The position numbers and the translations under genes are program-made. From positions 3,317,501 through 3,381,500 of the forward strand of contig NZ_CP014143.1 in the NCBI RefSeq assembly GCF_001750105.1: a DNA stretch of 64,000 nucleotides, written 5' to 3'. Each line of letters opens with the position of its first letter. Positions within the stretch are counted from its first letter, which is position 1. The notes under the pieces were generated by a model. The model did no database searches. It had not been told where the DNA came from and was given only the letters and a program-made list of their open reading frames with translations. The stretch is from Microbulbifer aggregans (GTDB taxonomy: Bacteria; Pseudomonadota; Gammaproteobacteria; Pseudomonadales; Cellvibrionaceae). Shown here in pieces: positions 1 to 40,953 of the stretch.

Positions 1-2380
1 AGGCATTGTTGCCACGGTCGAGATAGCGCTTGGACTCATAGTTACCCAACAGCTCGGTGAAATACCCGACACCATTGGCAAACTCGCCGTCATACCGCAT
101 GGACAACATGGATGCGTGTTTGGCGGAATTCAGAAACTGCATGCCGGAGTAGTCGCCTTCGGCGGTGCCGGTCCACAGTTTGTCCAGCGTACCCGGCCTT
201 CCCACATCGGCAATGGTGTAATCTTTCACTTCCGTGTCGCTCAGCACATAGCTGGCGAGGAAGGTCCAGTTCACCGTCGGGCGATAAATGGCACTCAGCT
301 CGAGGCCCTGCAATTCACTTTTACCCGCATTGGTTACGACAGCATTCTGGGTGCCGGTATTTGGGTCGAATACGAAGTGAGAAATCTGCTGGTTGGTATA
401 GTCATACAGGTAAATGGCGCCATTGACCTGCAGTCGGTTATCCAGCACATTGCTCTTGAAACCCGCCTCATAGACGGACAGCTCTTCGGGCTTGTACTCC
501 CCGGTGGTGATAATGCCGTCACCGTCTGCCGTGGACATTCCGCCGGGCTTGAACCCTTCCGAGTAGGAGGTGTAAAGCATCAGGTTATCCAGTGCCTGCC
601 AGTCCAAACTCACCCGTGGAACAAACGCGCGGTCAGTGCGGGAATAGGTCTGCTCACCGGGATCGGCCGGCATGAAGGTCACCGGATCCAGAACCGGAAT
701 GCCCATCAAGCCATTGAACTGTGTGCTCAGCGGCACACTGCGGTAGTCGATATCTTCCTCGAGATAGCGGCCTTCCGCAGTCACACGCCAGTCCTCGGCG
801 AGGTTGTAGTTCAGCGAGAAAGCCACAGACACGTGATCGGTATCGCGCTTCATGGGAATCGGAAGCGGCACCGGTGACGTGCGATGATCCACCAGTCCAA
901 AGCCGCCCATCCACTGATCCAGGTAAGCATCCCAGAATGTCTTGTCCACGCCCTCACGCAGCCACCACTGCTGGTTCATCACCGTATCCATGGTTTCGGA
1001 CCAGTAGAGCGCGCTGGTTTGCCAGTCGAGTTTACCTGCGCTACCTGTCAGCCGGAATTCCTGACTGAACTGCGCGGATTCGAAAGTGGTGTCACTATTC
1101 GCATTTACCCCGTACTGGGTGTACTCACCGGGGAAGCCCGGCGGAATGAACATGCCGGATCCGGGACCCAGAGACTGGAGCGTAAAGTTCGTGCGGTCAA
1201 AGTCAGACTGTGTGCGGGAATCGTTGTAGTTGACCCCGGTGAGGGACAGGAACTCATAATTGTCCATCTCCAGCTTCAGCTCCAGCGAGGAGCGCGCACC
1301 GCGTACAGAGGTACCGGCAAAGTCGCGACCGGTCAGTGGATCGGGAGACAAGTCAATTTCGCTTTCTGAGGCACTGCTCAGTTCACCCACGATGACCGTG
1401 CCACATGCAGCCGGGCCCCCAACGAGATGGGCATAAGGGGAAGACATGGCACAGTCGGCGTCGGTGGTGCCGGTGCCGGCAATCGGCCGTATTTCCGCGT
1501 AAGGGCCAACGGAACCAAGGAGCGCAAAATCAAACGGAGAGGAACCGGTATGCACGACTGACTGGCGCTGCACGATGGGGCGCTGGGAATACTTGGCCTC
1601 ACTGTATTCTGCTCGCCAGTAGGTGGAGAACTTCTCATCCGGGGTCCAGTTCACCGCTGCGGCAATGCCATCAGACTCTACGGTGCCGAGGTTACCCCCC
1701 GTATTGGGGTTGTCGTAGTAGCCATCGAATTCGGTTTTTGCCACATTGAGTGACGCAGCCAGAACACCGGGCACGATGGGCAGATTACCGCTCGCCTGCA
1801 TCTTGCCATAGCCGTGCTCGGTGGCATCCACCGCAAAACGGGCTTCCGGCGCCTCGCCCGGGCGCTTGGTGATGTAATTGACTGCGCCGGAGAATGCAGA
1901 GCGGCCGTACACCGCGCTTTGCGGCCCCTTGACGACCTCCACCCGCTCCAGATCGAACAGGTCCAGGTTGGGCCCATTGCCACTGCCGCCAGTGGTCATG
2001 GATTCAGAGGAAACATCCACACCATCCACCAGCAACGCCACATTGGATCGACCACGGGAATTGGACAGCCCGCGCAGGGAAATTCGGGTGTCGTTGGGCA
2101 GCAGTCCGGTTTCGAAATCCAGTCCAGCCGTATAACGGGCAACCCCCTCCAGCGCAGAAATGCCTTTTTCCTGCATCTGCGCTCCGGTGAGCACGTCCAC
2201 TGCTACCGGTACCGTTTGCAAAGATTCTTCCCGCTTCCGCGCGGTTACCACCACTTCCTCAATGGCAAAGTCGTCCCCGCGTGCGGCTTTTACTTCCCGA
2301 GTATGTTCTGTTTGCGCCATTGCACCCTGCACCGCGATGCAGGTGGCAATAGCGAGAGAGAGTTGGTTCCTGTTAAACAT
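1..2380 (-). CDS. TonB-dependent outer-membrane receptor (C-terminus beyond window)
   Basis: Outer-membrane beta-barrel that would import a ligand using TonB energy. The frame reads open from an ATG at 2380 to the left edge, so at least 793 residues are present and the barrel end is missing. The N-terminus looks like a signal peptide (MFNRNQLSLAIATCIAVQGAMAQ), followed by a TonB-box-like segment EEVVVTARKREESLQ and a plug with the usual LRGLSN, LVDGVDV and ERVEVVKGPQSAVYGRSAFSGA motifs. The type is the broad siderophore/vitamin family common in marine heterotrophs; the ligand cannot be read from sequence. Being first in the catabolic region, it plausibly imports the substrate, perhaps a tetrapyrrole. 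An AT-rich palindrome lies about 110 bp upstream. Family certain, ligand unknown. Confidence 0.93.
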   Translation of the reverse strand, partial: MFNRNQLSLAIATCIAVQGAMAQTEHTREVKAARGDDFAIEEVVVTARKREESLQTVPVAVDVLTGAQMQEKGISALEGVARYTAGLDFETGLLPNDTRISLRGLSNSRGRSNVALLVDGVDVSSESMTTGGSGNGPNLDLFDLERVEVVKGPQSAVYGRSAFSGAVNYITKRPGEAPEARFAVDATEHGYGKMQASGNLPIVPGVLAASLNVAKTEFDGYYDNPNTGGNLGTVESDGIAAAVNWTPDEKFSTYWRAEYSEAKYSQRPIVQRQSVVHTGSSPFDFALLGSVGPYAEIRPIAGTGTTDADCAMSSPYAHLVGGPAACGTVIVGELSSASESEIDLSPDPLTGRDFAGTSVRGARSSLELKLEMDNYEFLSLTGVNYNDSRTQSDFDRTNFTLQSLGPGSGMFIPPGFPGEYTQYGVNANSDTTFESAQFSQEFRLTGSAGKLDWQTSALYWSETMDTVMNQQWWLREGVDKTFWDAYLDQWMGGFGLVDHRTSPVPLPIPMKRDTDHVSVAFSLNYNLAEDWRVTAEGRYLEEDIDYRSVPLSTQFNGLMGIPVLDPVTFMPADPGEQTYSRTDRAFVPRVSLDWQALDNLMLYTSYSEGFKPGGMSTADGDGIITTGEYKPEELSVYEAGFKSNVLDNRLQVNGAIYLYDYTNQQISHFVFDPNTGTQNAVVTNAGKSELQGLELSAIYRPTVNWTFLASYVLSDTEVKDYTIADVGRPGTLDKLWTGTAEGDYSGMQFLNSAKHASMLSMRYDGEFANGVGYFTELLGNYESKRYLDRGNNA

Positions 2381-2489
2381 GGCCCCTCCATTATTCTTGT
2401 TTAGTTACAGCTCTGCGTTGGCAAATAAACCTACTGCTGTATATCGGCCACACTTTGGAATCGCCTGCCGACGAAACCTATTGTTATTA

Positions 2490-2507
2490 TGTTATACTTT
2501 TATATCT
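2490..2507. promoter_or_regulatory. AT-rich palindromic promoter element, copy 1
   Basis: TGTTATACTTTTATATCT matches the TGTTATA-N4-TATA(A/T)CA element repeated at 13798, 17855, 22875 and 35358, with one mismatch at the last base. It lies upstream of the TonB receptor gene. It may be an operator, or an extended -10 element (TGTTATACT). This copy is the only one not between divergent genes. Confidence 0.45.
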
Positions 2508-2609
2508 TTTCAAAACTTTTTTCTGGTCAGGAAATCCAACTTTCATCTCCGGCGTACACACTGCCGCACACCCTGAGTTTACCTGGATAAGTAGCCAGGG
2601 GAAGACTGA

Positions 2610-3386
2610 TCAAAATTCTTCGAGTAAGCGCCCCTTCCCCGTAATCCGATCCTCGATGCCACAGGCACGCAGCGCGTGCCATACAGTCGCAACGTTAATT
2701 GGGATCAAGGGTTTCTGAAGCCAGTGCTCCAGTATCGGGAATACATCCATCGTTGACAGGTTGGTGCCGCACTGGATGATTGCATCGACATCATCCCCAT
2801 CGACCTCCCGAATGGCCTGCATGACCTCCTGAATGGAAGTTTCGGCAATGGCCGTGGCTGATGGCCTGTTCATGCCCTTGACCTTGACCACTTCAAAGCC
2901 GATATCGGAGAAGAAGCGCCTTACGTTGTCATCACCGACCGGCGGATAGGGAGTAATCACCGAAATCCGCTTGGCTCCAAAACAATTGAGTGCGTCTTTG
3001 GTGGCCCCGGCACCGGTGGTGAGTCCAAGCTCCCCGATCTGGTCACGGATTTCCCGCTCGAAGGCGATATTGCCCTCCAGCCCGCCCCAGAAAGTCTCGG
3101 CAGACATCCCCAACATGATGTGGGACACCTTGGCGGACAGGATATTGCGAATCGATACCGGGATTTCCCCGCGCATGATGTCAAGGAAACGCTCAAACAC
3201 CGTATTTTCGTCATCGCCGGTGCGGGAAACCTCATCGGACCAGTTGCGCAGCTCGATCCAGAATCGGGATGGGTGCCAGGTAACACCGTCCAACCTGATC
3301 TGCTGCAGGTCGTATTCGACCCCGGTGTTGGTGGAAGGAATGATGACGCCGATCTGGGCGCGTCGAGCGATCTGATAATTGTCCAT
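2610..3386 (-). CDS. Asp/Glu racemase superfamily protein A (maleate isomerase / arylmalonate decarboxylase-like)
   Basis: 258 residues, the usual size for maleate cis-trans isomerases and arylmalonate decarboxylases. The family start motif IGVIIPSTNTGVEYD is at residues 12-26. Racemases and maleate isomerase use two cysteines. Here the first site reads GMSAETFWGG (residues 93-102) without Cys, while the second keeps Cys206 in IIQCGTNLSTM. A single Cys in the second half is the arylmalonate decarboxylase arrangement. It is a paralogue of the protein at 4695-5528. An FNR-type box lies 53 bp upstream of the ATG with a TATAAC -10 at 22 bp spacing, so it has its own promoter inside the operon. 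Likely acts on a maleate- or malonate-like diacid; exact reaction unknown. Confidence 0.85.
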   Translation of the reverse strand: MDNYQIARRAQIGVIIPSTNTGVEYDLQQIRLDGVTWHPSRFWIELRNWSDEVSRTGDDENTVFERFLDIMRGEIPVSIRNILSAKVSHIMLGMSAETFWGGLEGNIAFEREIRDQIGELGLTTGAGATKDALNCFGAKRISVITPYPPVGDDNVRRFFSDIGFEVVKVKGMNRPSATAIAETSIQEVMQAIREVDGDDVDAIIQCGTNLSTMDVFPILEHWLQKPLIPINVATVWHALRACGIEDRITGKGRLLEEF

Positions 3387-3439: not shown

Positions 3440-3453
3440 ATGACAATTATCAA
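3440..3453 (-). promoter_or_regulatory. FNR-type box upstream of racemase A
   Basis: On the plus strand this reads ATGACAATTATCAA, one mismatch from the palindrome TTGAC-AATT-ATCAA. On the minus strand it is followed after exactly 22 bp by TATAAC (3417-3412), the spacing of a class II FNR/CRP-activated promoter. It overlaps the stop codon of the MFS gene. Confidence 0.6.
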
Positions 3454-4661
3454 GAATTCCCGGTGGCGACTTCTGCGGCAACCGGGTCCACGAGCTGTGG
3501 CGTACGGAGGGTGAGTGCCAGTAACAGCAAGAGGGCCATCAACCCGGCACCAACATAGTAGGGAGCGTGAACGCCGACACCGGCAAAGACGGACCCCGTC
3601 AGGCCGGTACCCAGTGCCCTGCCCAGGGTACCGAGCGCGTTATAGATTCCCATTACGGCCCCGCGACTATGGGCTTCTGCTTCCTTGGAAGTCAGCGATT
3701 GCATGGATGTCAGCACCAGCGCGGCACCAATTGCCTGGCCCATCAGAGCCCCGGCTACCGCTGGCACACTGGCTGCAGAACCGGCGACCGAAACCAGCAG
3801 GGCCGAGATACCGAATATCACTGCACCGGCCCGCATCAGCCGCCGTTCCCCAAACCTTCTCGAAAGTGGCCCAATCAAGCCGCCCTGTACAATCACCATG
3901 GCAATCCCTGCGGCAAGCAGCACCGGAACCAGATCTTTGGGACCATGGGCGATATTGGTGGCGTCCGCCCAGATCGGAAACACTGACTCGACAAATCCTG
4001 CAGCCAGGTTGTAGACCGCCACAGCCGCCAACAACAGACACAGCGTCTGGCGGCCGGCGATCCAGGTCAGCATCTGCCTCGCTGACGGTGAGGCCCCTCC
4101 TGATTTCGCCGTATCCGGCAGACTTTCCTTGAGAAAGAAAACCACCACCATCAGAGCAGATAAAGTCAGCCCCGCAGACACCATCGCCGGCAACTGCAGG
4201 TTGGCATCGGCAAAACTGTCACCTGCGAGATACCCGCCCAGAGCCGGCCCGAGGATAAAGCTGATACCGAAAGCCGCACCCAGCATGCCCATCGCCTTGG
4301 CACGATCCTGATTGGTGGTGACATCAGCCACATAGGCCTGGGCCACCGAGAGATTCCCGGCCATGAGCCCGCTGAACAGGCGCGATAGCGCCACCATCCA
4401 TACCTCGGTAGCAAAACCGAGCAGAACATATCCGCAGATGGCCCCCGCCAGGCTCAGCACCAGGATTGGCTTGCGTCCAAAGCGATCACTCAGCTTTCCC
4501 CAAATCGGGGTCGCAAAAAACATACCGACGACATACAACGCCATGCAGAAAGTCGCCATACCCGGGGTCGCCCCCAGCTGCAGCGCATAGTAGGCGAGGA
4601 TAGGCAGCATGATCGCAAAACCAATCATATCCAGCAGGACGATAAACACGGCAATATACAT
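3450..4661 (-). CDS. MFS transporter (TetA-like, 12 TM)
   Basis: 403-residue major facilitator with about 12 hydrophobic segments. The family motif A between TM2 and TM3 reads GKLSDRFGRKPIL and the TM4-TM5 region reads GLMAGNLSVAQAYVADVTTNQDRAKAMGMLGAAFG, as in the TetA/drug-H+ antiporter branch. Located in the inner membrane. It sits between the two racemase paralogues in the same leftward operon, so it probably moves a pathway substrate or intermediate rather than a drug. Direction and substrate cannot be read from sequence. Confidence 0.88.
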   Translation of the reverse strand: MYIAVFIVLLDMIGFAIMLPILAYYALQLGATPGMATFCMALYVVGMFFATPIWGKLSDRFGRKPILVLSLAGAICGYVLLGFATEVWMVALSRLFSGLMAGNLSVAQAYVADVTTNQDRAKAMGMLGAAFGISFILGPALGGYLAGDSFADANLQLPAMVSAGLTLSALMVVVFFLKESLPDTAKSGGASPSARQMLTWIAGRQTLCLLLAAVAVYNLAAGFVESVFPIWADATNIAHGPKDLVPVLLAAGIAMVIVQGGLIGPLSRRFGERRLMRAGAVIFGISALLVSVAGSAASVPAVAGALMGQAIGAALVLTSMQSLTSKEAEAHSRGAVMGIYNALGTLGRALGTGLTGSVFAGVGVHAPYYVGAGLMALLLLLALTLRTPQLVDPVAAEVATGNS

Positions 4662-4694: not shown

Positions 4695-5528
4695 TCAGTG
4701 CTCTTCCAGCAGCCAGCCCATATTGTCAAATTGATCGCGAACACCACAGCTGCGCAGCGCATGCCAACAGGTTGCCACATTGATGGGCAGCACAGGCTTC
4801 TGCAGCATTTTTTCCATGGCCGGAAAAACGCCCAGAGTCGAGAGATTGGTGCCCACCTGGACGATCGCATCCACATCGTCTCCATCGATTTCGCGTACGA
4901 TATCAAGCACTTGTGGCTCAGGTACGAGTGCGATCGCATCGTGGGCATTTGCACACCGCAGGCCCACCAGATGCTTGATGTTGTAACCGGCGTCCTCAAA
5001 GAAGAGACGCACATTTTTGTCCCCCACCGGCTGATATGGGGTGAGAATCGAGAGTGTCTTACCAGAGCCTTCCGGTACTCCCAGCGCCTCGAGGGCAGCG
5101 ATCACCGCATTGGCACCGGTAGTCAGGCCGGTATCTTCCCCCACCATCTGCTGGATCCGATCCACAAAACCGTCGTTACCCTGGATTCCACCCCAGAAGG
5201 TCTCGGCTGACATGCCCATCATCACGTGGTCGGGTTTGCAGGTCATCAGACTCTCGATCGAACCGCCGATAGTTTCACGCAGTCTCTCCAGGAATCGCAT
5301 GAAATTTGCATCATCGCTGAGATCCGGGTGATCGATCATGAAGCGAGTGGTGTGCCAGGTAACGCCTCGCGGTAGTATGCGCTGGCAGTCATATTCCACC
5401 GAGGTATTGGTCGAGGGGATCACGACACCGATCTTTGCACGGTGCCCGATATAGTTGTCTCGGTGACCATTGGTAACCTGTGAACGTTCACGGGTTTTGG
5501 AAAGGTCGATCTCAGTAGGAAAAGTCAT
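4695..5528 (-). CDS. Asp/Glu racemase superfamily protein B (both canonical Cys absent)
   Basis: 277 residues from the ATG at 5528, chosen because GGAGAG lies 7 nt upstream; an ATG 12 codons earlier lacks such a site. It has the family motif IGVVIPSTNTSVEYD and the same first-site block GMSAETFWGG as its neighbour at 2610. At the second site Val225 (IVQVGTNLSTL) replaces the cysteine, so neither canonical catalytic Cys is present. The conserved MSAETFWGG block suggests the pair uses a different chemistry, or that this copy is a partner subunit or a non-catalytic binder. It lies 72 bp after the monooxygenase gene in the same operon. Family secure, function open. Confidence 0.82.
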   Translation of the reverse strand: MTFPTEIDLSKTRERSQVTNGHRDNYIGHRAKIGVVIPSTNTSVEYDCQRILPRGVTWHTTRFMIDHPDLSDDANFMRFLERLRETIGGSIESLMTCKPDHVMMGMSAETFWGGIQGNDGFVDRIQQMVGEDTGLTTGANAVIAALEALGVPEGSGKTLSILTPYQPVGDKNVRLFFEDAGYNIKHLVGLRCANAHDAIALVPEPQVLDIVREIDGDDVDAIVQVGTNLSTLGVFPAMEKMLQKPVLPINVATCWHALRSCGVRDQFDNMGWLLEEH

Positions 5529-5600
5529 TGGTGTCTCTCCGGGCACGGCAGCATGACCGCGCAACTATTAATTCCATTTTCAACCAGAAGCTATCAGTAG

Positions 5601-6815
5601 CTACGGCACAGTCAGGCTCTCGCGCACACAGTTGATCATCGACCTCTCGAGCAGGAAGGCTCTTGCCAGCTCTGGATCCGCTGCAGTTTCCATCAACATC
5701 TGCTGCCGCTTGCGCTGCACATCCGGATCGCGCGCCTCCATCAGCTTCTTGTTCTCTATTGTGTGGCGTTGGACAAATTGCACAGCAAGTTCACGACGCT
5801 GGCGATCGTAGAGGGAAAATGAGGCCTCTGGATCTGCGCCTGCAAGAAGCACTCGCTGTAATTTTTCCGCGAGATTGAAGGCATCATGCAGACCACCATT
5901 CATTCCCATGCCCCCCAGGGGGTTGTTGATGTGGCAGGCATCCCCTACCAACAGTACCCGTCCGCGGTAATAGGTCTCTGCGACACGCTGGTTGACGGCA
6001 TAAATACTGCGGTGATGGATGTCGTAGTCGGTGTCACGTGGATAAAGACGCTTCAACCGCGACTGCACGAATTCGTCTGACAGGTAAAAAGCTTCCTCTT
6101 CCTCACTGGTGGGGAATACAGGAACCAGAACCCGCCAGAGTTTGTCGGTACGCAGGATCACGCACCACTCTTCGGGGTCTGACACATAATTCACATAGGA
6201 GAAGTCTTCGAATACTTCTTCGAAGGGAAAGCTGGTGCTGACCACCAGGAATTTCTCATCGTAGGTGAAACCCATGTAGCCGATATCGGATTGTTTTCGC
6301 ACCACGCTACGGGCACCTTCGGCGCCAACAAGATAAGATCCCTGCAGGCGCTCCGTGCCGGAATCGCTCCCAACAATCGCGGTAACGCCAGTCTCGCCCT
6401 GCTCATAGGAGAGCAGCTCGCAACCGAAGCGCACCTCCGCACAATCGTATTTACTCAGGGCTTCACAGATAAAGTGGGTGAGCTCGTACTGCTCCAGCTG
6501 CAAACGGAAAGGAAAACGTGTTTGGTCCGCGATCAACGACATGTCGAAGGTAGCCACTTCCCCTGTGCCGCGGTCACGGTATTGATAGCGATCCGCCCGC
6601 AGGCCCCGCTCGAGCATTCTTGCAATAACGCCCTCATCCAGGTTTGCGATCATTTCCAGCGACGGCGGATGAAAAGTGGACGCACGCAGATCAATAGGGA
6701 GACTGTCACATTTTTCTAGCAGTCGCACAGGAATTCCCTGCTTTGCCAGGGACAATGCCAACACACAGCCGCTGGGGCCTGCACCGGCAATAATTACGGG
6801 ATGCTCAATAGACAT
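5601..6815 (-). CDS. FAD-dependent monooxygenase (group A, PHBH/UbiH-like)
   Basis: Single-component flavoprotein hydroxylase of about 404 residues. It carries the N-terminal dinucleotide motif GAGPSG, an interior YLVGAEGARSVVRK segment (DG-type motif, aspartate replaced by Glu) and the second FAD motif LLVGDACHINNPLGGMGMNGG. Such enzymes insert one oxygen atom into an aromatic or conjugated ring using NAD(P)H. I prefer the ATG at 6815; a GTG two codons earlier is also possible. It lies in the operon 11890-2610, between the amidohydrolase and racemase B, and could oxygenate a pyrrole or bilin ring; that role is inference. Confidence 0.9.
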   Translation of the reverse strand: MSIEHPVIIAGAGPSGCVLALSLAKQGIPVRLLEKCDSLPIDLRASTFHPPSLEMIANLDEGVIARMLERGLRADRYQYRDRGTGEVATFDMSLIADQTRFPFRLQLEQYELTHFICEALSKYDCAEVRFGCELLSYEQGETGVTAIVGSDSGTERLQGSYLVGAEGARSVVRKQSDIGYMGFTYDEKFLVVSTSFPFEEVFEDFSYVNYVSDPEEWCVILRTDKLWRVLVPVFPTSEEEEAFYLSDEFVQSRLKRLYPRDTDYDIHHRSIYAVNQRVAETYYRGRVLLVGDACHINNPLGGMGMNGGLHDAFNLAEKLQRVLLAGADPEASFSLYDRQRRELAVQFVQRHTIENKKLMEARDPDVQRKRQQMLMETAADPELARAFLLERSMINCVRESLTVP

Positions 6816-6880
6816 AACCACTCGCCAATCTTTATTGTTTGTTTTCTAGCACCGGGCTCAACAGCCAGACATGGCCCTGA

Positions 6881-7483
6881 TCATGCCGTCTGGCATGAGG
6901 GCAAAAGGTCCATTGTTTCTGTCAACGACATAACATCGGCATACTTCGCATGCATATCGAACAAGTTGGCCTTGTGCGCCTCAGGGTTGCGATCACCCAC
7001 AGCTTCCCGAGGTACAACTACCGGATAGTCGTACTGCAGGCCGTCGACCACAGTTGCCCGAACACAGCCACTGGTCGTCAGTCCGGTGACGACGAGCGAA
7101 TCCACACCCTGCTCTTTCAGCCAGTCATCCAGGTTCGTCCGATGAAAACTGCTCGCCCACTGTTTGCCGATCACTGGTTCGCCCTGTCGCGGCGATAACC
7201 GCGGGTCCACCTGTACCCATTCAGAGTCTGGCGTGAGCAGGTTCAGGTGCTTGATGCGGTTGCGGAACACCGGGGCTTCACTTTCGTGGTGATACACCAC
7301 TGTGGTAAACACCACTGGCAGGGCCAGAGAACGAAAGCGATCGAGTAACACGCGATTGGCTTTCACAACATCGGGGCAGTCGGTACCGAGTGGGCAGCGG
7401 CTGCTGGTAAAGCCAACGATCATATCCACCAGTAGCAACGCGGGCCGATTGCCGAGTCCCAGGCTGTTCCTCTGCAGATCCAC
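6881..7483 (-). CDS. Isochorismatase-family cysteine amidohydrolase (maleamate / N-carbamoylsarcosine amidase-like)
   Basis: 200 residues. The catalytic triad of the family is visible: Asp20 (LLLVDMIVGF), Lys107 (VIGKQWASSF) and nucleophile Cys140 (TGLTTSGCVRATV). This form resembles N-carbamoylsarcosine amidase and maleamate amidohydrolase (NicF-type) more than true isochorismatase. NicF-type enzymes give maleate plus ammonia, and the neighbouring genes encode maleate-isomerase-like proteins, so cleavage of an alkyl-maleamate is an attractive guess. It is followed after 65 bp by the monooxygenase gene. Confidence 0.88.
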   Translation of the reverse strand: MDLQRNSLGLGNRPALLLVDMIVGFTSSRCPLGTDCPDVVKANRVLLDRFRSLALPVVFTTVVYHHESEAPVFRNRIKHLNLLTPDSEWVQVDPRLSPRQGEPVIGKQWASSFHRTNLDDWLKEQGVDSLVVTGLTTSGCVRATVVDGLQYDYPVVVPREAVGDRNPEAHKANLFDMHAKYADVMSLTETMDLLPSCQTA

Positions 7484-7530: not shown

Positions 7531-8385
7531 TCAGCCAGCCTCGACAATTTCGAGAAAAAATTGCCGCAGAAGATCGGCTACCGCATCGGGCTGACGATCG
7601 CATACGTAGGTTCCCGCCTCTTCCGGCAACGCCGCCTCCCGGCCCTGCGGGAGCAAGCGCACAGAGGGAACCACAGCCGATCGCAATAAATCCCGACCGC
7701 CGGCAAATACCAACGTCGGACACTGGATGGTCGCCATCTGCCGGGCAACATCCTGCTCCGCCACCGCCCGGTAGGAGGCCTCGTAATAGTCACCGCAGGT
7801 AAATGCCAGCAGTGTCTCTCGCAGGGTCAGCGCCAGGTCCGCCTCCGGATCTTTGGCTCTCAAGCGCTGCCACATCTCCTGCCAGTGTGACCCTTTCTCA
7901 TCGAGGCTTACTGCCTGCGCAGCGGATGGCAGAGCCTCCTTTTGGGCCTCAGTCAGCAGCGTAGGGCCGCTCAGCGCCAGGGCACGCACAAACTCCGGTT
8001 GGTCAAACGCCAACTGGACTGCGATAGCAGCTCCGGTGTGATGACCAAACACCAGCACAGGGCGATCGAACGTTCGGCTTACCGCCTTGAAAATAACCTC
8101 GGCGAAGGTGGCAATAGAGACATCCGCTGGTAGCGGATCACTGTTGCCAAATCCAGGTGTGTCCACCGCCAACACAAAAAAGTGTGGCGCCAGTAATGGC
8201 ATCAGGCGCAGATACATGGCGGAGGAACTGGGGGTCTGATGTAACAAGATCAGCAACGGCAGGCTCTCGTCTCCACAACAGCGGTAATGCAGTTGACCGC
8301 TGTCGTGGGTCAGGTAACCCTTGCGGATAACTCCCGGCTTACCGTCCGTCAACGTGGCAAGCTCCCCACATCGACACTGATCCAT
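7531..8385 (-). CDS. Alpha/beta-hydrolase-fold protein with altered nucleophile elbow
   Basis: 284 residues with the alpha/beta-hydrolase layout: oxyanion-side LLHQTPSSSAMY and DTPGFGNSD, elbow, then TLVFAGGRDLL for the acid. The elbow reads GHHTG (114-118), with His where the Ser of GxSxG should be, and the usual C-terminal GH is absent (EEAGTYVCDRQPDA). Either the protein is catalytically unusual or it is a binding or cofactor-independent enzyme. The first 37 bp overlap the end of the aldehyde dehydrogenase gene, so translation is probably coupled. Confidence 0.8.
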   Translation of the reverse strand: MDQCRCGELATLTDGKPGVIRKGYLTHDSGQLHYRCCGDESLPLLILLHQTPSSSAMYLRLMPLLAPHFFVLAVDTPGFGNSDPLPADVSIATFAEVIFKAVSRTFDRPVLVFGHHTGAAIAVQLAFDQPEFVRALALSGPTLLTEAQKEALPSAAQAVSLDEKGSHWQEMWQRLRAKDPEADLALTLRETLLAFTCGDYYEASYRAVAEQDVARQMATIQCPTLVFAGGRDLLRSAVVPSVRLLPQGREAALPEEAGTYVCDRQPDAVADLLRQFFLEIVEAG

Positions 8386-9791
8386 TTCACCTCAGTGAAT
8401 TCCTCAGTGCTGTAATGCCCTCCGCTGCGCCCCATTCCCGAGAGCCCTACGCCACCAATGGGGGCCAGCGCATTGCTCTGGAAGGTATGCATACCGATAT
8501 GCACCGCGCCGGAGGCGATCCTGCGTGCGGCATGCAGACCCCACTGGATATTATTGGTCATGACTGCCGCTGATAGTCCGTAATCACTGTCGTTGGCAAC
8601 AGCGATTGCCTCTTCGAGGTCATCTACAGCGACCACGCTGGCGACCGGACCAAAACTCTCCTCTCGCCAGGCGAGGCTATCGCGAGGCGGATCCAGCAAA
8701 ATGGTCGGCTTGACGACCAATCCGTTCAGGACTTCACCCCCAGTCAGAATTTCCGCACCGGCCGCGACAGCCTCGCGAACATGCTCGAGCACTTTCTCTA
8801 CTGCGCGGCTGTTGATCAGGGGGCCATATACGGTTCGCTCATCCCGCAGATCTCCAAGATAAAGGCCCTCAGCCTCTGCCTTGAGCGCATCGATAAACGA
8901 TGGATAAATATCCCGCTCTACCACGATGCGGGAATTGGCCATACAGATTTGCCCGCTGTGGGTGAATATTCCCTGCGCTGCGATTTTGGCAGCCTGCTTG
9001 GGATCTGCATCCTTCAGGACCAGCAGTGCACTCTTGCCGCCGAGCTCCAACTGCATGCGCCGCATCCTGCTCAGACCAGCCTGCCCTACTGCGATTCCGG
9101 TATTGGTAGAGCCGGTCAGTGCAATGCAGCGTACAGCGGGGTGATTGATCAATTCCGCACCACATTCGGAGCCATACCCCGTCACTACATTGATCGCCTC
9201 TGACGGGACGCCCGCGTCCAGCAACAGGCGGCCGAAAGCCAGTGCCGTCAGGGGAGTTTCCTCTGACGGCTTGATCACCAGGCTGTTGCCCGCGGCCAAC
9301 GGGAAAGCACACATCTTGGTCAGCAAGGACAGAGGCGCGTTATAGGGTGATACCACGCCCACCACACCCAGTGGTTCACGGATGACCATGGACATACGGT
9401 GGGGATCGTCGTTCGGGAATGTCTCACCATATAGCCGTCGCGCTTCGCCGGCGGCGGTGCGCAGCAGGTCTACGGTGTAAGCAATTTCTCCCCGTGCCTT
9501 GGTGATTGTGGAGCCGCTCTCGTCAATCAGCGTATCCAGAAAGCGCGTCTGTCCCTCGTTAGCCACAAGCTCCGCAGCGCGTAACAGCACAGCTTCACGC
9601 TCGGCGGGACGCAAACGGTACCAGGCGTCGAAGCCAATGGAAGCTGCCCGCACCGCATGATCAACGTCTGTGGCGCCAGCGCGGGGGACTTGCGCCAGAA
9701 GACTACCGGTGGCCGGAGCCGTTACTTCGAAGTAGCTCCCACTGGCTGCGGGCACAGCCTCTCCACCGATGAGCATATTGCGGTTCTGCAT
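8349..9791 (-). CDS. NAD(P)-dependent aldehyde dehydrogenase
   Basis: 480 residues, standard ALDH length. It has the cofactor and catalytic landmarks: PYNAP (Asn151), IKPSEETPLTA, TGSTNTG, catalytic Glu249 in LELGGKS and nucleophile Cys283 in HSGQICMANSRI. It oxidises an aldehyde to the carboxylate. The aromatic/semialdehyde dehydrogenase branch (benzaldehyde, vanillin) is the nearest type I can suggest. In this operon it would take an aldehyde released from a side chain or ring fragment, for example a formyl group. It ends inside the downstream hydrolase gene. Confidence 0.92.
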   Translation of the reverse strand: MQNRNMLIGGEAVPAASGSYFEVTAPATGSLLAQVPRAGATDVDHAVRAASIGFDAWYRLRPAEREAVLLRAAELVANEGQTRFLDTLIDESGSTITKARGEIAYTVDLLRTAAGEARRLYGETFPNDDPHRMSMVIREPLGVVGVVSPYNAPLSLLTKMCAFPLAAGNSLVIKPSEETPLTALAFGRLLLDAGVPSEAINVVTGYGSECGAELINHPAVRCIALTGSTNTGIAVGQAGLSRMRRMQLELGGKSALLVLKDADPKQAAKIAAQGIFTHSGQICMANSRIVVERDIYPSFIDALKAEAEGLYLGDLRDERTVYGPLINSRAVEKVLEHVREAVAAGAEILTGGEVLNGLVVKPTILLDPPRDSLAWREESFGPVASVVAVDDLEEAIAVANDSDYGLSAAVMTNNIQWGLHAARRIASGAVHIGMHTFQSNALAPIGGVGLSGMGRSGGHYSTEEFTEVKWISVDVGSLPR

Positions 9792-11143: not shown

Positions 11144-11890
11144 TTAGGTATTGTTTTTCAGCAGGGCACGCAGTGCTTCACTACTCTCGCTACCAATCAG
11201 CCCACCGATCTGATTCCAGACCTTGTCGACATCCGGGTCAAAAATAATCTCGCGATTGCGGCGATCTCGCTCTGCCAGCGCAGCACTGTCGACCGCCTCA
11301 AGTGCCTTGTCACTTACCCCTTTTTCCAGCACGGAAAACCAGTGTTCCAGGTATGCGTTGACAGTCCCATCGAGTGCCTTGAACGCATCCATGGTGGTGC
11401 GATGTACAAGCATCCATGGCGACATCACCGCCAACTGGCGAATATCCAGTTGTGCCTCGCTTAATCCTTCCATTGCACGTCCAGCTTTGCAGGCGTCTGT
11501 CAGGGGCGTATAGACCTCATCCATGTAGGCCAGGTTGGCCCCGAGGTCGAGACGGGGAACCAGATCGAGGTGGAATGCGCAGTGGCCGCCGGCACCAACC
11601 GAATCCAACGTGAAGTGTGGCACTGCGCTCTCGTCAGGAGTGAACGCAAATAACATATGGGAATCGAGGCCAATCTGCGGCACCACGATCGCACAGGTGA
11701 CCAGCTGCTGCAGTGCCCCACCGGAAAAGACACGAACTTCACCAACTTTCCCCTGCGCCATCGGCACATGACTTTCGAGCGTCATGTACGGACCGCCATC
11801 GTCACCGGGGATTTCCGTGAGCCCGAGAGTTGCAATGATTCGGTCGCGGGTTTTCTGTGCCAGGGCCTCAGGAAGTGAAGCTGCGCTCAT
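11144..11890 (-). CDS. RCCR-like protein A, ferredoxin-dependent bilin reductase superfamily
   Basis: 248 residues. I recognise the core pattern of plant red chlorophyll catabolite reductase (PHFLME, then LLDLLPRKDL, then YIEKFY) as VPHFTLD (90-96), LDLVPRLDL (108-116) and YMDEVYTPL (122-130). A later acidic motif, FDPDVDKVW (217-225), lines up with the conserved C-terminal Asp of RCCR; the Glu after PHFxM is Asp96 here. RCCR reduces an open-chain chlorophyll product using ferredoxin. A second, diverged homologue is at 38275. First gene of the leftward operon, with an FNR-type box 67 bp upstream. The family is inferred from motif recall, not from a search; substrate unknown. Confidence 0.68.
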   Translation of the reverse strand: MSAASLPEALAQKTRDRIIATLGLTEIPGDDGGPYMTLESHVPMAQGKVGEVRVFSGGALQQLVTCAIVVPQIGLDSHMLFAFTPDESAVPHFTLDSVGAGGHCAFHLDLVPRLDLGANLAYMDEVYTPLTDACKAGRAMEGLSEAQLDIRQLAVMSPWMLVHRTTMDAFKALDGTVNAYLEHWFSVLEKGVSDKALEAVDSAALAERDRRNREIIFDPDVDKVWNQIGGLIGSESSEALRALLKNNT

Positions 11891-35405: not shown

Positions 35406-36290
35406 ATGAGCACAAGCGAATCCCGCCCCGCCCTCGGCCCCTGCTCGGTGGCCACCCTCGCAAGCCCGGACGCACCGCGGCTGGTCGATGACTATTGCAG
35501 CCACCTGCACTGCCAGGTCCTTACCTGTGAAACTCTCACGGCGTCCATGACCCGCCAGTGGGGCTGCCCTGGACTCACTGGCAACCAGTATTGGCTGCTT
35601 GGAAATGCTCTCGGGCGCCCCTGGTTGCGCATCGTCGAAGATGCCTCTGCTGAGCCTGTCACCCCCCTATCTCGTGCGGGTTGGATGGCACTGGAAATAC
35701 TGGTTGAGGACGTCGATGACCTCGCCGCCACACTGGAGGCCTCTCCGTTTCAGCTATTGCGACCCGCCGCCAACCTGGAACTCAGCGATAAGATCCGTGC
35801 CGCACAGGTTCAGGGCCCTGCGGGCGAGCTGTTGTACCTCACCCGCATCGCCGGTGAAGTCCCGCCTTTCCAGCTTCCCAAGGCTCGCTGCGCCGTCGAC
35901 CACCTTTTTATTCCGGTGCTGGCCAGCACGGGTCGCGCAGCATCCCTGGCGCAATATGAAGCCTTGGCTCAGTACGATGGCTTGAGTTTTGACACCAGAG
36001 TTACAGTCATTAACCAGTTGCGCGGGCTACCAATGGAACAGCGACATCCGCTCGCGACTCTGCAGTTGGCAGACAATTCCCTGATAGAGATCGATCAGCT
36101 CGAAAATCTTGACGTTGCCCAGCAGCAAGGTGGCACTCTCGGCGGCGGCGTTGCCATGGTGACCTTTTTCATCGACTGCCTGCCTGCTGGCGTGGAGGCC
36201 TATCACCACAGCGCTGCTCCGTATGAAGGGCGCCGAAGTTGTACGCTCTACGGAAACGATGGCGAACGGATCGAGCTGATAGAGCGATAG
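35406..36290 (+). CDS. VOC-superfamily protein (two-module, glyoxalase/extradiol-dioxygenase fold)
   Basis: 294 residues with two VOC halves: the first from about residue 10 (ATLASPDAPRLVDDYCSHL; later GWMALEILVEDVDDLAATL) and the second starting at CAVDHLFIPVLA. Members include extradiol dioxygenases, glyoxalases and binding proteins. I cannot identify a complete metal triad by eye, so enzyme activity is uncertain. Divergent from the hydratase operon and first in a rightward set; a ring-cleaving or isomerising role is possible. Confidence 0.75.
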   Translation: MSTSESRPALGPCSVATLASPDAPRLVDDYCSHLHCQVLTCETLTASMTRQWGCPGLTGNQYWLLGNALGRPWLRIVEDASAEPVTPLSRAGWMALEILVEDVDDLAATLEASPFQLLRPAANLELSDKIRAAQVQGPAGELLYLTRIAGEVPPFQLPKARCAVDHLFIPVLASTGRAASLAQYEALAQYDGLSFDTRVTVINQLRGLPMEQRHPLATLQLADNSLIEIDQLENLDVAQQQGGTLGGGVAMVTFFIDCLPAGVEAYHHSAAPYEGRRSCTLYGNDGERIELIER

Positions 36291-36353: not shown

Positions 36354-37127
36354 ATGCCTTACCGCAGTATTCGAGGACACATCCGTTACACCAGCCGCAA
36401 GCCTGACCGGCTCGGCCACGAGCGGGGTCGGGAGTTTTTCAGCATTTCCCAGCAAACGGATGGCGTCGACGTATTGCAGGCACATTGTGAAATCGATGAT
36501 GCCCCCAGTGTTACCCGGGACATTGTGCAGGCCATGCGCCACTCTGACTCGGCACCGCTGGATTGCTCCGTGCGCCTGACTGTGGGAGACGAATTTGAAG
36601 GCAGCGGCTGGTTTCGCTTTACCGACAAACTGGCCGAATGCGAAACCTTCAACCAGCGCGACGGTCGCATCAGCCAGTGCATTGAGCTGGCCGCACCTGT
36701 GCAGTGGATGCAGTGCCACCCGATCGCGGGCGACGGCCTGCTGATGCGGCTTTATGACCTTTCCAAAGGCCCCGGTAAACAACACTTCCCCCACATGATG
36801 CTGTCCTCACCAGATCATCGCGGTGCAACCGGTCCCCTGCTGTTTAAAATGGGCTTCTCACTGGTTTACCTTGGGGAAACGGATATTACCGTTGAGGCTG
36901 GAACCTTCCGTGCACGACACTTCCAGGTGACCGACACCGCCGCAGACCTGCCCGAAGAGCACCCGCCCTACAATGTCTGGTGCACGGCTGACGATGACTA
37001 TCTGCTCCTGCGAGCCGAAGTGGAGGGGTATATGCAAACCCGTTACGAGCTGGCAGAACTGCAATACTTTGAAACCACAGCCGGCATCACCAAGGCCCGG
37101 CAACCAGTGGCAGAACCGCTGGTTTAA
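36354..37127 (+). CDS. Protein of unknown function, beta-rich (DUF3108-like pattern)
   Basis: 257 residues, soluble, no signal peptide. Alternating strands in SVRLTVGDEFEGSGWFRF and LVYLGETDITVEAGTFRARHF, followed by a YLLLRAEVEGYMQTRYELAEL ending, recall the DUF3108/lipocalin-like beta proteins, but I do not recognise a characterised member. It follows the VOC gene by 63 bp and precedes the SDR promoter. A ligand-binding role for a hydrophobic intermediate is a guess. Confidence 0.72.
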   Translation: MPYRSIRGHIRYTSRKPDRLGHERGREFFSISQQTDGVDVLQAHCEIDDAPSVTRDIVQAMRHSDSAPLDCSVRLTVGDEFEGSGWFRFTDKLAECETFNQRDGRISQCIELAAPVQWMQCHPIAGDGLLMRLYDLSKGPGKQHFPHMMLSSPDHRGATGPLLFKMGFSLVYLGETDITVEAGTFRARHFQVTDTAADLPEEHPPYNVWCTADDDYLLLRAEVEGYMQTRYELAELQYFETTAGITKARQPVAEPLV

Positions 37128-37321: not shown

Positions 37322-38188
37322 ATGAAAATACTGATACTGGGAATGGGGCATGTGGGGAAGGCCCTGGGCAGCAGGCTCCGCAGCAAGGGTCACCAGGTGG
37401 TCGGGAGCACGACCACCCCAGAAAAGGCACAGGGTCTGAGAGCGTTTGCAGACGAAGTAGTGGTACTCAAGGGGCACGAATCCGAGAAGGTCGCTGCGGC
37501 AGCCAGCGGCGTGGACCTGATCATCGTTACCGTTGCGCCAAACGTAAAAAATACCCGCACCCCGGAAGAGCGGCACCGGCACTACCGCCAGACTCTGGTT
37601 GAAACCTGCTCCAGCGCAGCTGCGAGTTGCGACCGCCTGATATTCCTGTCCTCGTTCTCCGTGTACGGCGACGGCGGTGAAGGTAGCAGTGCCATTACCG
37701 AGGAAACGCCTACCAGTAACCACGAGGAACCCTCCTCGCTGTATTACCAGAAGGCAGAACAGAAAATCCTCTCCCAGGCAGGGGGATGTGTCCTGCGCTT
37801 CCCGGATATGTATGGTGCGCCCGGGGATATGAGCTTCCCTGAACGGGTGAAGCTGGCACATTCCTATTTCGGTGGTAAAGCCTTGTTTGGTGCCGACGCC
37901 CTGCTGTACGCGATTCATTTTGAAGATGTGGTCAGCGCGGTCGTTCATGCCATCGACCACAAACTGCAAGGTATCTTCAATGTATGTGATAACGAGCGTA
38001 TACCCGCCACGAACGCCAGGGTATTCGATGCCATCTGTGATCACGAAGGATTGTCACGACTCGAATTTCTGAATCAGATCAAGGCACCGAATCGAAGGAT
38101 TTCGGCTGCCAAAATCTACCAAACAGGCTATCGCGTAGCGCACGGGGACCCGAATGCAAGCTACCTGACGGAAGCTGAGACCCACTGA
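37322..38188 (+). CDS. Extended-type SDR (NAD-dependent epimerase/dehydratase fold)
   Basis: 288 residues. The N-terminal motif ILILGMGHVGKALGSRL is a Rossmann loop, and the catalytic Ser-Tyr-Lys region reads FLSSFSVYGDGG with YYQKAEQ further on. The substrate is not evident; proteins of this kind (GMGHVG start) are common in cyanobacteria and plants, with ill-defined roles. Located in front of the RCCR-like B gene under an FNR-type promoter, so a reductive step on a pigment derivative is possible. Confidence 0.8.
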   Translation: MKILILGMGHVGKALGSRLRSKGHQVVGSTTTPEKAQGLRAFADEVVVLKGHESEKVAAAASGVDLIIVTVAPNVKNTRTPEERHRHYRQTLVETCSSAAASCDRLIFLSSFSVYGDGGEGSSAITEETPTSNHEEPSSLYYQKAEQKILSQAGGCVLRFPDMYGAPGDMSFPERVKLAHSYFGGKALFGADALLYAIHFEDVVSAVVHAIDHKLQGIFNVCDNERIPATNARVFDAICDHEGLSRLEFLNQIKAPNRRISAAKIYQTGYRVAHGDPNASYLTEAETH

Positions 38189-38274
38189 GGTCTATCCCGG
38201 GACACATGGTTATGAGTAGCGCCTAGTGCCCGCCTAAACACTTTTCACCAATTGAGTACTCAATGAGGCAAGTT

Positions 38275-39084
38275 ATGCATTCGGATACAAAAACCATCGA
38301 CCAGTTCCTGGCAGAAAGCCCAGACGTGGATGTAAGCAAAGCCTGGGAACGTTGCTGGGGCATCCTAACCGACATCAAGGGAACCATTGCCAGCCGTTTT
38401 ACCGGTCTACAGCTGGACCCGAACTGCAAAGACAGGGAGTACTACACCTCCCCCAACGGCGAGTTCGAAGGATCATTTCAGGCCTGGAGTGGCGGCGACT
38501 GCGAGTGGCTGGTGAATTCCTGGCTTGGCAACCGCAAAGCCAGCATTCTCGACATGAATGCCACTGCCTACCTGGGACAGAACACCGATGTACCCCACTT
38601 CGTCATGGTATTCGGCACCATCCCTAAACTCTTCTTCTACTTTGATTTTATGCCGCGGCGGAATCTATTAGTGGACAGTGACTATCTCGACAAGTACTAC
38701 GCTCCCATCAACGAGGAGTACCTGGCCCTGCGTGGACACAGCAATTTCCAGTGGTCGGTCAGCCATGGCCCCTATATGAGAGCGCTGATCAATCCCTCCA
38801 CCCAGAGCCTGATGGCAGACCTGAACAACGAGAACATCGACATTCTGGAAGCCTATGCCCGCAAGATGCTCGATCACTGGCTGGGCTGGTATGACAATGC
38901 AGAGCCATTACCAGAGAGCGAACGCACAGCATTGCGCCATGACGATCATCAATTGCGGCGCTTGTGCTACGAGCGCGACCCGATGAACAAGCTGGCCACC
39001 CGGGTGTTCGGAGAAGAGGGGGTTCAGGAGATGTTAACGCTGCGGATGGGCGCGGAGCAGATGCGCCGCGCTGTCAGTGCCTGA
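38275..39084 (+). CDS. RCCR-like protein B, ferredoxin-dependent bilin reductase superfamily
   Basis: 269 residues from the ATG at 38275, preferred because GAGG lies just upstream; an ATG four codons earlier is possible. It keeps the RCCR block order better than protein A: VPHFVMV (106-112), FDFMPRRNL (123-131), YLDKYYAPI (137-145), against plant PHFLME, LLDLLPRKDL, YIEKFY. The C-terminal ERDPMNKLATRVFG (233-246) matches the plant LDLTANLPRMFG, keeping its Asp. The Glu after PHFxM is Val112. So one of the two acidic substrate-contacting residues described for RCCR is lost. Probably ferredoxin/rubredoxin-dependent reductase of an open-chain tetrapyrrole; exact substrate unknown. Confidence 0.75.
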   Translation: MHSDTKTIDQFLAESPDVDVSKAWERCWGILTDIKGTIASRFTGLQLDPNCKDREYYTSPNGEFEGSFQAWSGGDCEWLVNSWLGNRKASILDMNATAYLGQNTDVPHFVMVFGTIPKLFFYFDFMPRRNLLVDSDYLDKYYAPINEEYLALRGHSNFQWSVSHGPYMRALINPSTQSLMADLNNENIDILEAYARKMLDHWLGWYDNAEPLPESERTALRHDDHQLRRLCYERDPMNKLATRVFGEEGVQEMLTLRMGAEQMRRAVSA

Positions 39085-39093
39085 AGCAGAACC

Positions 39094-39801: not shown

Positions 39802-39902
39802 TTTATCAACCTCACGGGTTTGAATTTGAATTGATGCTACGAACCGATTACGCCAGAACCAGTAACACAGTTCATGGATACCCCACTTGATGTCGGCGCA
39901 AA

Positions 39903-39916
39903 TTGACAATTATCAA
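39903..39916 (+). promoter_or_regulatory. FNR-type box, perfect copy, upstream of the chlorophyllase-like gene
   Basis: TTGACAATTATCAA, with TTGA and TCAA half-sites both intact. A -10-like TAAGCT (39939-39944) starts exactly 22 bp after it, the class II FNR spacing. It lies 56 bp before the ATG. Confidence 0.7.
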
Positions 39917-39972
39917 TCTGTGACAATAGATAGCTACCTAAGCTCACCTTCAGGGACCAAGAGAGACTTTTA

Positions 39973-40953
39973 ATGTACCTGACACGCTGTATTTTCGATG
40001 CATTCAAAGTGGAAGCTCTCGCCCCTCCATACGATACGGGCATTGCCAGGATTTACTATCCGGCACGATACGGGGACTCTTTTGAAGAGCGGAATACTGG
40101 CGCCGTGCCCGTAGATGAGACACTGGCCCCCTGTCCGGTCCTCATTCTATTCCATGGTATCAATATCGATCCCAGTGGTTATCGCTGGCTGGCAGAAACG
40201 CTGGCCGCCGAGGGTATTGTTACCGTGTCTTACCAGCTCGTTGCAGAAGAAATGCCTGGACAGTTAGCCGCAACGCCGGGTATCGACCTGCAGGCGCTGA
40301 CGCCCGAGCACTTTGGCAAACGCACGTCCGCCCTCGCCATGCCGGCACTCCTGTCCATGCTCGAGCGCCTGAACAACAGGAGCGTGTTGGCGGGGAAACT
40401 CGATCTGAAGCGGCTGGCCTTCGGTGGCCACAGTGCCGGCGGGACGCTGGCCCTGCTCAACGCCAACCGTGACTGGTTCCCAGCACTGCGTGCCGTCTTT
40501 GCCTACGGCGCACATACCGGCGGCTCCACCGCCCTGGGGTGGCCAGAGGAAACGCTGCTTCCGATCAGCAATGGCGTGCCACTTCTCATGATTGGCGGCG
40601 AGCAGGACGGCTGCATTGCCAACAGTGCACACCGCTATGAGTCCAATTCAGCCAGCACAACCGCGCGTATCGAACAGACCTTCGACATGGCCGTCCCAGA
40701 CAATGGCGGCGACAATGTCCTGCTCCTGCTCAGGGACGCCAACCATTTTTCCGTGTGCACCCCTGCGGATGAAACCTGTGGCCGTGGCTTCATCGACCTT
40801 CCAGTAGAAACAGATGAGGCCCGTAACGTCGCCGGCCAGGCTGTCCGCCTGTTCTTGCGGGGATTCCTTTGCGACGACCCGGCAGCGCTCGGCGCGTACC
40901 GGGAAATGCAGGGCGTCGATCACAATATGATCAGCAAGCTGCTGCAAAAGTGA
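39973..40953 (+). CDS. Alpha/beta hydrolase resembling chlorophyllase
   Basis: 326 residues, no signal peptide, cytoplasmic. Triad: Ser154 (FGGHSAGGTLA), Asp212 (IGGEQDGC) and His258 (DANHFSV). The opening strands PCPVLILFHGINIDPSGYRWLAETLAAEGIVTVSYQL match the plan of plant chlorophyllase (YPVLLFLHGY...GFIVIAPQL), although the GHSRGG motif there is GHSAGG here. It may cleave the phytol ester or a methyl ester of a chlorophyll derivative. PET-hydrolase/cutinase-type esterases share the pattern, so the assignment is tentative. An FNR-type box drives it. Confidence 0.78.
   Translation: MYLTRCIFDAFKVEALAPPYDTGIARIYYPARYGDSFEERNTGAVPVDETLAPCPVLILFHGINIDPSGYRWLAETLAAEGIVTVSYQLVAEEMPGQLAATPGIDLQALTPEHFGKRTSALAMPALLSMLERLNNRSVLAGKLDLKRLAFGGHSAGGTLALLNANRDWFPALRAVFAYGAHTGGSTALGWPEETLLPISNGVPLLMIGGEQDGCIANSAHRYESNSASTTARIEQTFDMAVPDNGGDNVLLLLRDANHFSVCTPADETCGRGFIDLPVETDEARNVAGQAVRLFLRGFLCDDPAALGAYREMQGVDHNMISKLLQK

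Follow-up and report, generated by a model that had tools for sequence, protein, structure and literature searches.

A conserved bacterial gene cluster with RCCR-fold reductases, probably for tetrapyrrole catabolism

Plants break down chlorophyll by the PAO/phyllobilin pathway, which employs a hydrolase, the Rieske oxygenase PAO, RCCR, and NOL/NYC1, and which ends at phyllobilins. Nicotinate catabolism proceeds via dimethylmaleate, using a hydratase and 2,3-dimethylmalate lyase, and itaconate is degraded by RipABC. We are not aware of any report of bacteria assimilating a tetrapyrrole, and a literature search, with most subscription papers outside its reach, found no bacterial chlorophyll or bilin assimilation pathway. 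Here, we focus on a gene cluster in the complete 3,864,326-base genome of Microbulbifer aggregans (NZ_CP014143.1), much of which lies in a 64,000-nucleotide stretch, G000:C1:3,317,501-3,381,500, hereafter the window (G000 is this genome; other G numbers are compared genomes, and L numbers are compared loci). The cluster encodes three paralogous RCCR-fold reductases, RCCRa, RCCRb, and RCCRc. With a probability of roughly 0.6, we read it as a system that takes up a cyclic tetrapyrrole and degrades it completely under aerobic conditions to supply carbon and nitrogen; the substrate would most likely be a chlorophyll derivative, for example pheophorbide.

With the plant pathway, the cluster shares its set of enzyme classes: an alpha/beta hydrolase, a Rieske protein, an RCCR-family reductase, and a classical SDR, which an actinobacterial version of the cluster encodes close together. 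Unlike in plants, the Rieske protein is not of the PaO Pfam type, several RCCR clades exist rather than one, and, where the plant pathway stops at phyllobilins, imide and amide hydrolases and dicarboxylate enzymes follow. The nicotinate and itaconate routes share with the cluster a LeuCD/DmdAB-type hydratase, a dimethylmalate-lyase-like enzyme, a RipB/Ich-like hydratase, CoA transferases and, by eye, a CitE-like lyase; here, however, these make up the lower part of a far larger cluster that also encodes oxygenases and RCCRs. Finally, RCCR/FDBR-fold reductases are known from non-photosynthetic bacteria in pre-PcyA/FDBR clusters, which typically contain heme oxygenase, V4R, and globin (BBAG) genes (PMC10151467). 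Here, by contrast, there is no Pfam heme oxygenase and a catabolic set stands in place of these genes. What would be new is the pathway; its individual parts are of known families.

The first-pass annotation of the window reported two RCCR-like bilin reductases. Both are indeed RCCR-related, the one at 11,144 by its fold and the one at 38,263 by its sequence profile, but the number was too low, as RCCRc lies to the left of the window. RCCRa (38263..39084, plus strand) matches Pfam RCC_reductase (PF06405) with E 1.9e-14 and 53.9 bits, and RCCRc with 41.5 bits, against a cut-off of 24.9. An RCCRa profile retrieves plant RCCR (E 3e-20), and profile comparison puts RCCRa and RCCRc far closer to RCCR than to FDBR. 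RCCRb (11144..11890, minus strand), from a divergent clade, matches no Pfam family. Sequence search nevertheless identifies it as a paralog of RCCRa (E 9.8e-5), and hhalign aligns the two over 220 columns (probability 97.9, E 5.5e-13). Its predicted structure (predicted local distance difference test, pLDDT, of 81) has the alpha/beta/alpha fold of the RCCR/FDBR superfamily, with RCCR and then bilin reductases as best PDB matches. Asp291, which together with Glu154 we take to be catalytic in AtRCCR, aligns with an Asp present in every one of 14 RCCRa/c sequences. Next to the cluster of G392 lies a fourth RCCR-like gene (L051:3621-4373; 24% identity to RCCRb, long branch), which is highly divergent. 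Plasmid carriage of RCCRb was also considered and rejected, a plasmid search having found no match.

The cluster is conserved within the family. The RCCRa protein found matches in 12 of 120 family genomes, ten of which hold an RCCRa ortholog (68-100%). In a class sample of 369 genomes, RCC_reductase occurs in four, and RCCRb in the same four. Different RCCR clades are co-inherited. Searching genome contigs for RCCRa yielded 193 relatives, 80 of which were kept; one subset of these 80 loci has cluster genes nearby, and in another RCCRa stands alone. The NAD-dependent epimerase/reductase-like protein encoded next to RCCRa (37322..38188, plus strand; PF01370) is matched at 35% identity or more in 32 of these 80 loci. 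Comparison of the cluster proteins by tblastn across 16 clusters, our own and partly fetched ones included, found AmdaseA, ACAD, ALDH2, and RCCRb in all 16, and a 323-amino-acid (323-aa) protein, the SDR, ICL, and ALDH1 in 14. Fetched stretches of G442, G476, G468, G448, and G392 are nearly completely collinear. The clusters of G464, G486, G487, and G445 (Aestuariicella) are rearranged, and that of G445 has PucC, MetE, SahH, and MetK genes inside the block.

Conservation extends to another phylum. Actinobacterial RCCRa loci number at least ten (L139, L142-L150), and the four actinobacterial genomes examined, three Nocardioides and one Mumia, carry a collinear operon (loci L205-L216). This operon encodes a CN-hydrolase, a flavin reductase, an ACAD-fold protein, two aldehyde dehydrogenases, a lyase, and an FAD monooxygenase (present in all four), followed by RCCRd, a hydrolase, a Rieske protein, RCCRb, the 323-aa protein, an SDR, and an Amdase. 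The hydrolase gene, the counterpart of that at 39,973, sits between RCCR and Rieske genes in all four clusters, and RCCRa and the NAD-epimerase-like protein are encoded 10-17 kb from the operon. The SDRs share 53-57% identity with ours at 16,968. Identity of the Rieske protein to the actinobacterial genes is 35-41%, the same as to other Rieske genes in genomes with a solitary RCCRa, so its assignment there rests on position. Because clustering is conserved both within the family and across phyla, chance clustering is excluded.

RCCRa homologs without the rest of the cluster occur in many gammaproteobacteria (L097-L137 except L102 and L120). Among 19 such solo loci inspected by eye, 11 adjoin an OmpR/EnvZ-type two-component system, and no catabolic theme was seen around the 19, the surroundings being the two-component system and housekeeping genes. 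On a contig labeled as an Anaerolineaceae metagenome-assembled genome (L102), RCCRa is accompanied by Amdase-, Rieske-, isochorismatase-, and CoA-transferase-like genes, which represents either a further lineage or a binning error.

The best marker of the pathway is the 323-aa protein (20245..21216, plus strand), an orphan that co-occurs perfectly with the cluster in the sets searched. Of the 120 family genomes, the 12 that match RCCR are also the ones that have it. In a wider set, whose genomes were assigned to cluster or solo type from RCCRa neighborhoods before the protein was sought, it was found in 19 of 19 cluster-type and none of seven solo-type genomes (the L089 genome lies outside this set). 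It is in two pieces in G504 and occurs twice in G497. Its two halves align (E 1e-4, probability 57), a weak internal duplication, and its fold model is poor (pLDDT 34.7). Six of 20 homologs, the window's own not among them, weakly match DUF3598_N (best E 4e-4); two actinobacterial members scanned do not. Kinship with a 210-aa orphan (17895..18527, plus strand; no Pfam match; 10 of 16 clusters, all gammaproteobacterial) found no support in comparison.

The initial annotation confined the cluster to positions 1-40,953. The cluster is real, but this is its right part only: it continues left beyond the window at least to the Rieske gene (G000:3,291,913-3,293,097; PF00355) and possibly to 3,277,620, where genes for two PucC-family transporters begin (G000:3,277,620-3,280,436; PF03209). 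The Rieske oxygenase belongs to the cluster. It has both the CxH..CxxH cluster and the DxxHxxxxH iron site, and its domains are Rieske, VanA_C, and a weak KshA_C only. Pfam identifies in the left stretches CoA transferases, a RipB/Ich-like MaoC protein, a second isochorismatase, a second CN-hydrolase, an MFS paralog, and RCCRc. A CitE-like lyase was recognized by eye. The same stretches encode three polysaccharide-deacetylase-family proteins (PdaA, PdaB, and PdaC), a second SDR related to that at 16,968, a PEP-mutase/methylisocitrate-lyase-type enzyme, an aldehyde dehydrogenase, a second HMGL, a further CoA transferase, a GntR regulator, and two TonB receptors.

The two PucC-family proteins, like the PucC/LhaA/BCH2 transporters of phototrophs, exceed the PF03209 cut-off (152 bits each versus 21; E about 1e-44 each; whole-genome scores E 2e-64 and 3e-42). 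Unlike those transporters, they occur in a genome in which no reaction center was found, and they score far below the proteins of two other genomes. With strong PucC defined by our own cut of E below 1e-30, the PF03209 profile finds it, as a pair, in seven of the 12 family genomes with RCCR and in none of the other 108. Weak matches of this model to MFS proteins are common, occurring in 31 further family genomes, all without RCCR, and in 9 of 14 controls. As a sign of a chlorophyll-type substrate, PucC is thus supportive but incomplete. That phototrophy accounts for PucC in our genome was rejected, given the lack of a reaction center; the two high-scoring genomes, which carry solo RCCRa and very strong PucC (E about 1e-134), are perhaps phototrophs. 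The Pfam heme oxygenase PF01126, matched in 3 of 14 controls, is absent from the M. aggregans genome. Heme as a direct substrate via this canonical oxygenase is therefore rejected for this genome, other heme-degrading families lying outside the search.

Family membership, the RCCRb fold, the sequence kinship of plant RCCR with RCCRa and RCCRc, and the conserved clustering are observed, and from them we infer the substrate, the order of steps, and every reaction as follows. Uptake would rely on TonB receptors and MFS transporters and, in some strains, on the PucC pair. In the window, the candidate outer-membrane uptake protein is a TonB-dependent receptor, identified from its open reading frame (ORF) and sequence, whose N-terminal nine tenths occupy 1..2380 (minus strand; whole gene G000:C1:3,317,277-3,319,880) and which is found in 8 of 16 clusters, ours included; MFS transporters (PF07690) are encoded at 3450..4661 (MFS3, minus strand) and 13923..15251 (MFS1, plus strand). 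Alpha/beta hydrolases would then cleave esters. Three are present: at 7531..8385 (minus strand; PF00561), at 16103..16852 (minus strand; Abhydrolase_5, PF12695, E 1e-41; only 2 of 16 clusters), and at 39973..40953 (plus strand). The last is weakly chlorophyllase-like and was not confirmed as a chlorophyllase, its PF07224 score of 19.7 bits being under the cut-off of 26.

Next, the Rieske oxygenase would open the macrocycle, with electrons perhaps coming from a rubredoxin fused to rubredoxin reductase (18630..20132, plus strand; PF00301, PF07992, PF18113; 8 of 16 clusters). This fusion, whose gene adjoins the Rieske gene in L089, L090, and L091, is a candidate electron donor for the Rieske oxygenase, the RCCRs, or both. 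The RCCR-fold reductases (a, b, and c or d) would reduce the resulting bilin, perhaps one per methine bridge, helped by SDRs. The classical SDR at 16968..17801 (minus strand; PF00106, E 2.5e-41), previously likened to NOL/NYC1 by eye, could be assigned to the SDR family only; its best PDB matches are generic SDRs, with no NOL among the 39 matches listed. Cleavage to monopyrrolic lactams or imides would fall to the class A-type FAD-dependent monooxygenase (5601..6821, minus strand; PF01494, E 4e-57) and to the ACAD-fold flavoprotein (9803..11086, minus strand; PF02771/PF02770) with the flavin reductase (21206..21736, plus strand; PF01613, E 1e-41). By its sequence, the ACAD-fold protein may be a dehydrogenase or an FMN-dependent monooxygenase; its NCBIfam matches include DszC, HsaA, and SfnB, all under cut-off.

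Ammonia would be released by PuuE-like, isochorismatase-like, amidase, and CN-hydrolase enzymes. Our own cluster encodes eight C-N hydrolases, a number that fits the several imidases and amidases that ring opening and de-amidation of four imides would require. Those in the window are a nitrilase-superfamily carbon-nitrogen hydrolase (11999..13711, minus strand; PF00795, E 4e-44), an amidase-signature amidase (27634..29019, minus strand; PF01425; AtzE-like under cut-off), and an isochorismatase-type amidohydrolase (6881..7483, minus strand; PF00857, E 6e-38), which has the D and Cys motifs and for which we propose a maleamate amidase-like role. PdaA is PuuE-like, under the equivalog cut-off, and cyclic imide hydrolases are related to PuuE-type allantoinases (PMC9304392). 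One Nocardioides cluster (G503) encodes, by eye, a dihydropyrimidinase-like protein, which would open rings with a different fold. PMC7318184 describes oxidation of chlorophyll a to hematinic acid in vitro and maleimides reported from senescent leaves and sediments, which that study itself did not detect.

The resulting alkyl-maleates and itaconates would be converted to pyruvate, acetyl-CoA, and propionate-type acids by a LeuCD-like hydratase, a dimethylmalate/methylisocitrate-lyase-like enzyme, and CoA-dependent lyases. Alkylated maleates would fit these enzymes and itaconate-type CoA chemistry. LeuD- and LeuC-type subunits (33,220-33,870 and 33,867-35,303, minus strand; PF00694, PF00330; LeuC/LeuD models over cut-off) retain the Fe-S cysteines and are proposed to form an alkylmaleate hydratase, and the PEP-mutase/methylisocitrate-lyase-type enzyme has the KxCGH motif. 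Also present are a phenylacetate-CoA-ligase-like CoA ligase (29057..30457, minus strand; PF14535; PaaK models under cut-off), a family III CoA transferase (22941..24152, plus strand; PF02515, E 3e-119), and an HMGL-type DRE-TIM lyase (21852..22823, minus strand; PF00682; NCBIfam HMG-CoA-lyase subfamily over cut-off). Pfam scans, which covered 40 ORFs in the first 43 kb of the window, thereby bore out at family level the earlier assignments of the redox enzymes (18,630, 5,601, and 21,206), the C-N hydrolases (11,999, 6,881, and 27,634), and the lower-pathway enzymes (33,220 with 33,867, 29,057, 22,941, and 21,852).

The maleate-isomerase-like pair at 2,610 and 4,695 fared less well. AmdaseA (2610..3386, minus strand; E 3e-16) and AmdaseB (4695..5564, minus strand; E 1e-10) do belong to the arylmalonate decarboxylase/maleate isomerase superfamily (PF17645), and the best PDB match of AmdaseA is maleate isomerase 4fq5. 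Maleate isomerase, however, uses two catalytic cysteines, and these are not both present: AmdaseA has no Cys before residue 135, keeping the later one in its QCGTNL stretch, and AmdaseB has Val in place of that later Cys. Judged by these residues, maleate isomerase function of the pair is doubtful.

Of the chlorophyll or bilin catabolism originally proposed, breakdown of a bilin or tetrapyrrole is well supported, and chlorophyll as the specific substrate is likely rather than demonstrated. Tetrapyrrole catabolism of some kind, our best-supported reading, is highly probable given the three RCCR-fold paralogs, the Rieske protein, the C-N hydrolases with the alkyl-malate/itaconate enzymes, and the core shared by Pseudomonadota and Actinomycetota. 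Chlorophyll is likely given PucC in part of the genomes, the lack of a canonical heme oxygenase, and the Rieske protein as ring-opening candidate. We give even odds to a fuller version: bacterial chlorophyll assimilation in which the Rieske enzyme opens the ring, three RCCR-type reductases each saturate a different part of the bilin, and four pyrrole-derived imides go to central metabolites and ammonia. This pathway would be common to marine Gammaproteobacteria and soil Actinomycetota, and plant RCCR would be an offshoot of a bigger and older family that is chiefly bacterial.

Several observations weigh against this interpretation. Membership of the Rieske protein in PAO was rejected, as it has no match to the PaO-type C-terminal domain (PF08417), and its nearest PDB relatives are NdmA-type demethylases. 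Glu154 of AtRCCR, placed by eye within an alignment insertion, appears to lie opposite Val or Ala in RCCRa/c and, in RCCRb, opposite an Asp that does not vary; the reaction of RCCRa/c may therefore differ from reduction of red chlorophyll catabolite. RCCRa occurs without the cluster, lies over 90 kb from the rest of it in G448, and is missing from G468 and G476, two of the 12 genomes, which have only RCCRb and RCCRc. Strong PucC is missing from five of those 12 and, in the wider set, from 18 of 19 cluster-type genomes, Aestuariicella alone having it. No Staygreen match was found in 120 genomes, in a search that is not conclusive, no positive control having matched. Transporters and a large part of the lower pathway vary between clusters: few of the 16, some only partly fetched, hold the LeuCD-like pair (4), the CoA ligase (3), the amidase (5), PdaA (5), or PdaB, PdaC, and the second isochorismatase (6). 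In the actinobacterial clusters, matches to our eight C-N hydrolases are limited to the CN-hydrolase and one isochorismatase type. These clusters carry, by eye, a LIV-type ABC transporter, encoded in G503 between the operon and RCCRa, and this points to a substrate there that is smaller or more soluble. G503 also has surface-protein-like genes, likewise by eye. Co-occurrence counts, moreover, are not phylogenetically independent, and the family-level ones are dominated by one genus.

Other explanations must be weighed against this record. The substrate could be a tetrapyrrole that is linear from the start (phycobilins, biliverdin, or bilirubin from algae, heme, or plants), which RCCR-fold enzymes would saturate before Rieske and flavin enzymes act downstream. 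This is unlikely, given the PucC pair, confined in the family sample to genomes with RCCR, and the closeness of RCCRa and RCCRc to RCCR rather than to FDBR. Less probable still is a substrate that is no tetrapyrrole at all, such as an alkaloid or a lignin- or steroid-like N-heterocycle or polycycle, with RCCR-fold proteins recruited for another conjugated molecule. The Rieske protein, flavin monooxygenase, CoA ligase, and lyase are indeed generic catabolic families, the Rieske protein is nearest to demethylases, and solo RCCRa genes exist outside the cluster. Yet the named functions in the RCCR fold act on tetrapyrroles, different clades of the fold travel together, and the number of C-N hydrolases in our cluster fits a compound with several nitrogens. 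The role that we consider most improbable is a biosynthetic one, in which the cluster would make a bilin chromophore or another secondary metabolite: heterotroph bilin reductases are known from pre-PcyA clusters (PMC10151467), but TonB and MFS transporters, many hydrolases, CoA transferases, and lyases are the content of a catabolic block, and the genome has no Pfam heme oxygenase.

If this reading is right, the cluster would let bacteria draw carbon and nitrogen from the green pigment or from related bilins. PMC7318184 puts chlorophyll turnover, both manufacture and destruction, at 10^12 kg a year in scale and terms nonfluorescent chlorophyll catabolites end products. With the conserved gene set and the 323-aa marker, the question can be tested directly in cultured strains, and occurrence can be counted in metagenomes. 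The new reductase types could likewise inform RCCR versus bilin reductase chemistry and give plant RCCR origin a bacterial context.

The remaining genes of the window's cluster encode an aldehyde dehydrogenase (8349..9791, minus strand; PF00171), a Crp/Fnr-type regulator (24225..24914, plus strand; PF13545, PF00027), an S-adenosylmethionine (SAM) methyltransferase (25049..26236, plus strand; PF13649), an enoyl-CoA hydratase (26730..27605, minus strand; PF00378), two MmgE/PrpD-family dehydratases (30,475-31,869 and 31,856-33,244, minus strand; PF03972, PF19305), a 294-aa protein (35406..36290, plus strand; no Pfam match, glyoxalase-like by eye only), and a 257-aa orphan (36354..37127, plus strand; no significant Pfam match). 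Four of the 40 scanned ORFs, at the window's left edge, are antisense to the TonB receptor gene that crosses it.

Between the PucC and Rieske genes, adjoining our cluster, lie genes for a MetE-like protein, a PfkB kinase, SahH, and MetK (G000:C1:3,280,801-3,289,932); the same four are embedded together with PucC in the Aestuariicella cluster (L048-L049). They perhaps serve the methyltransferase at 25,049 by recycling methyl groups. A tRNA-Arg (acg) gene (window 41,065-41,141) immediately follows the cluster on its right. As 14 of 24 same-genus genomes listed have no RCCR match, this tRNA gene may be where an accessory block integrated.

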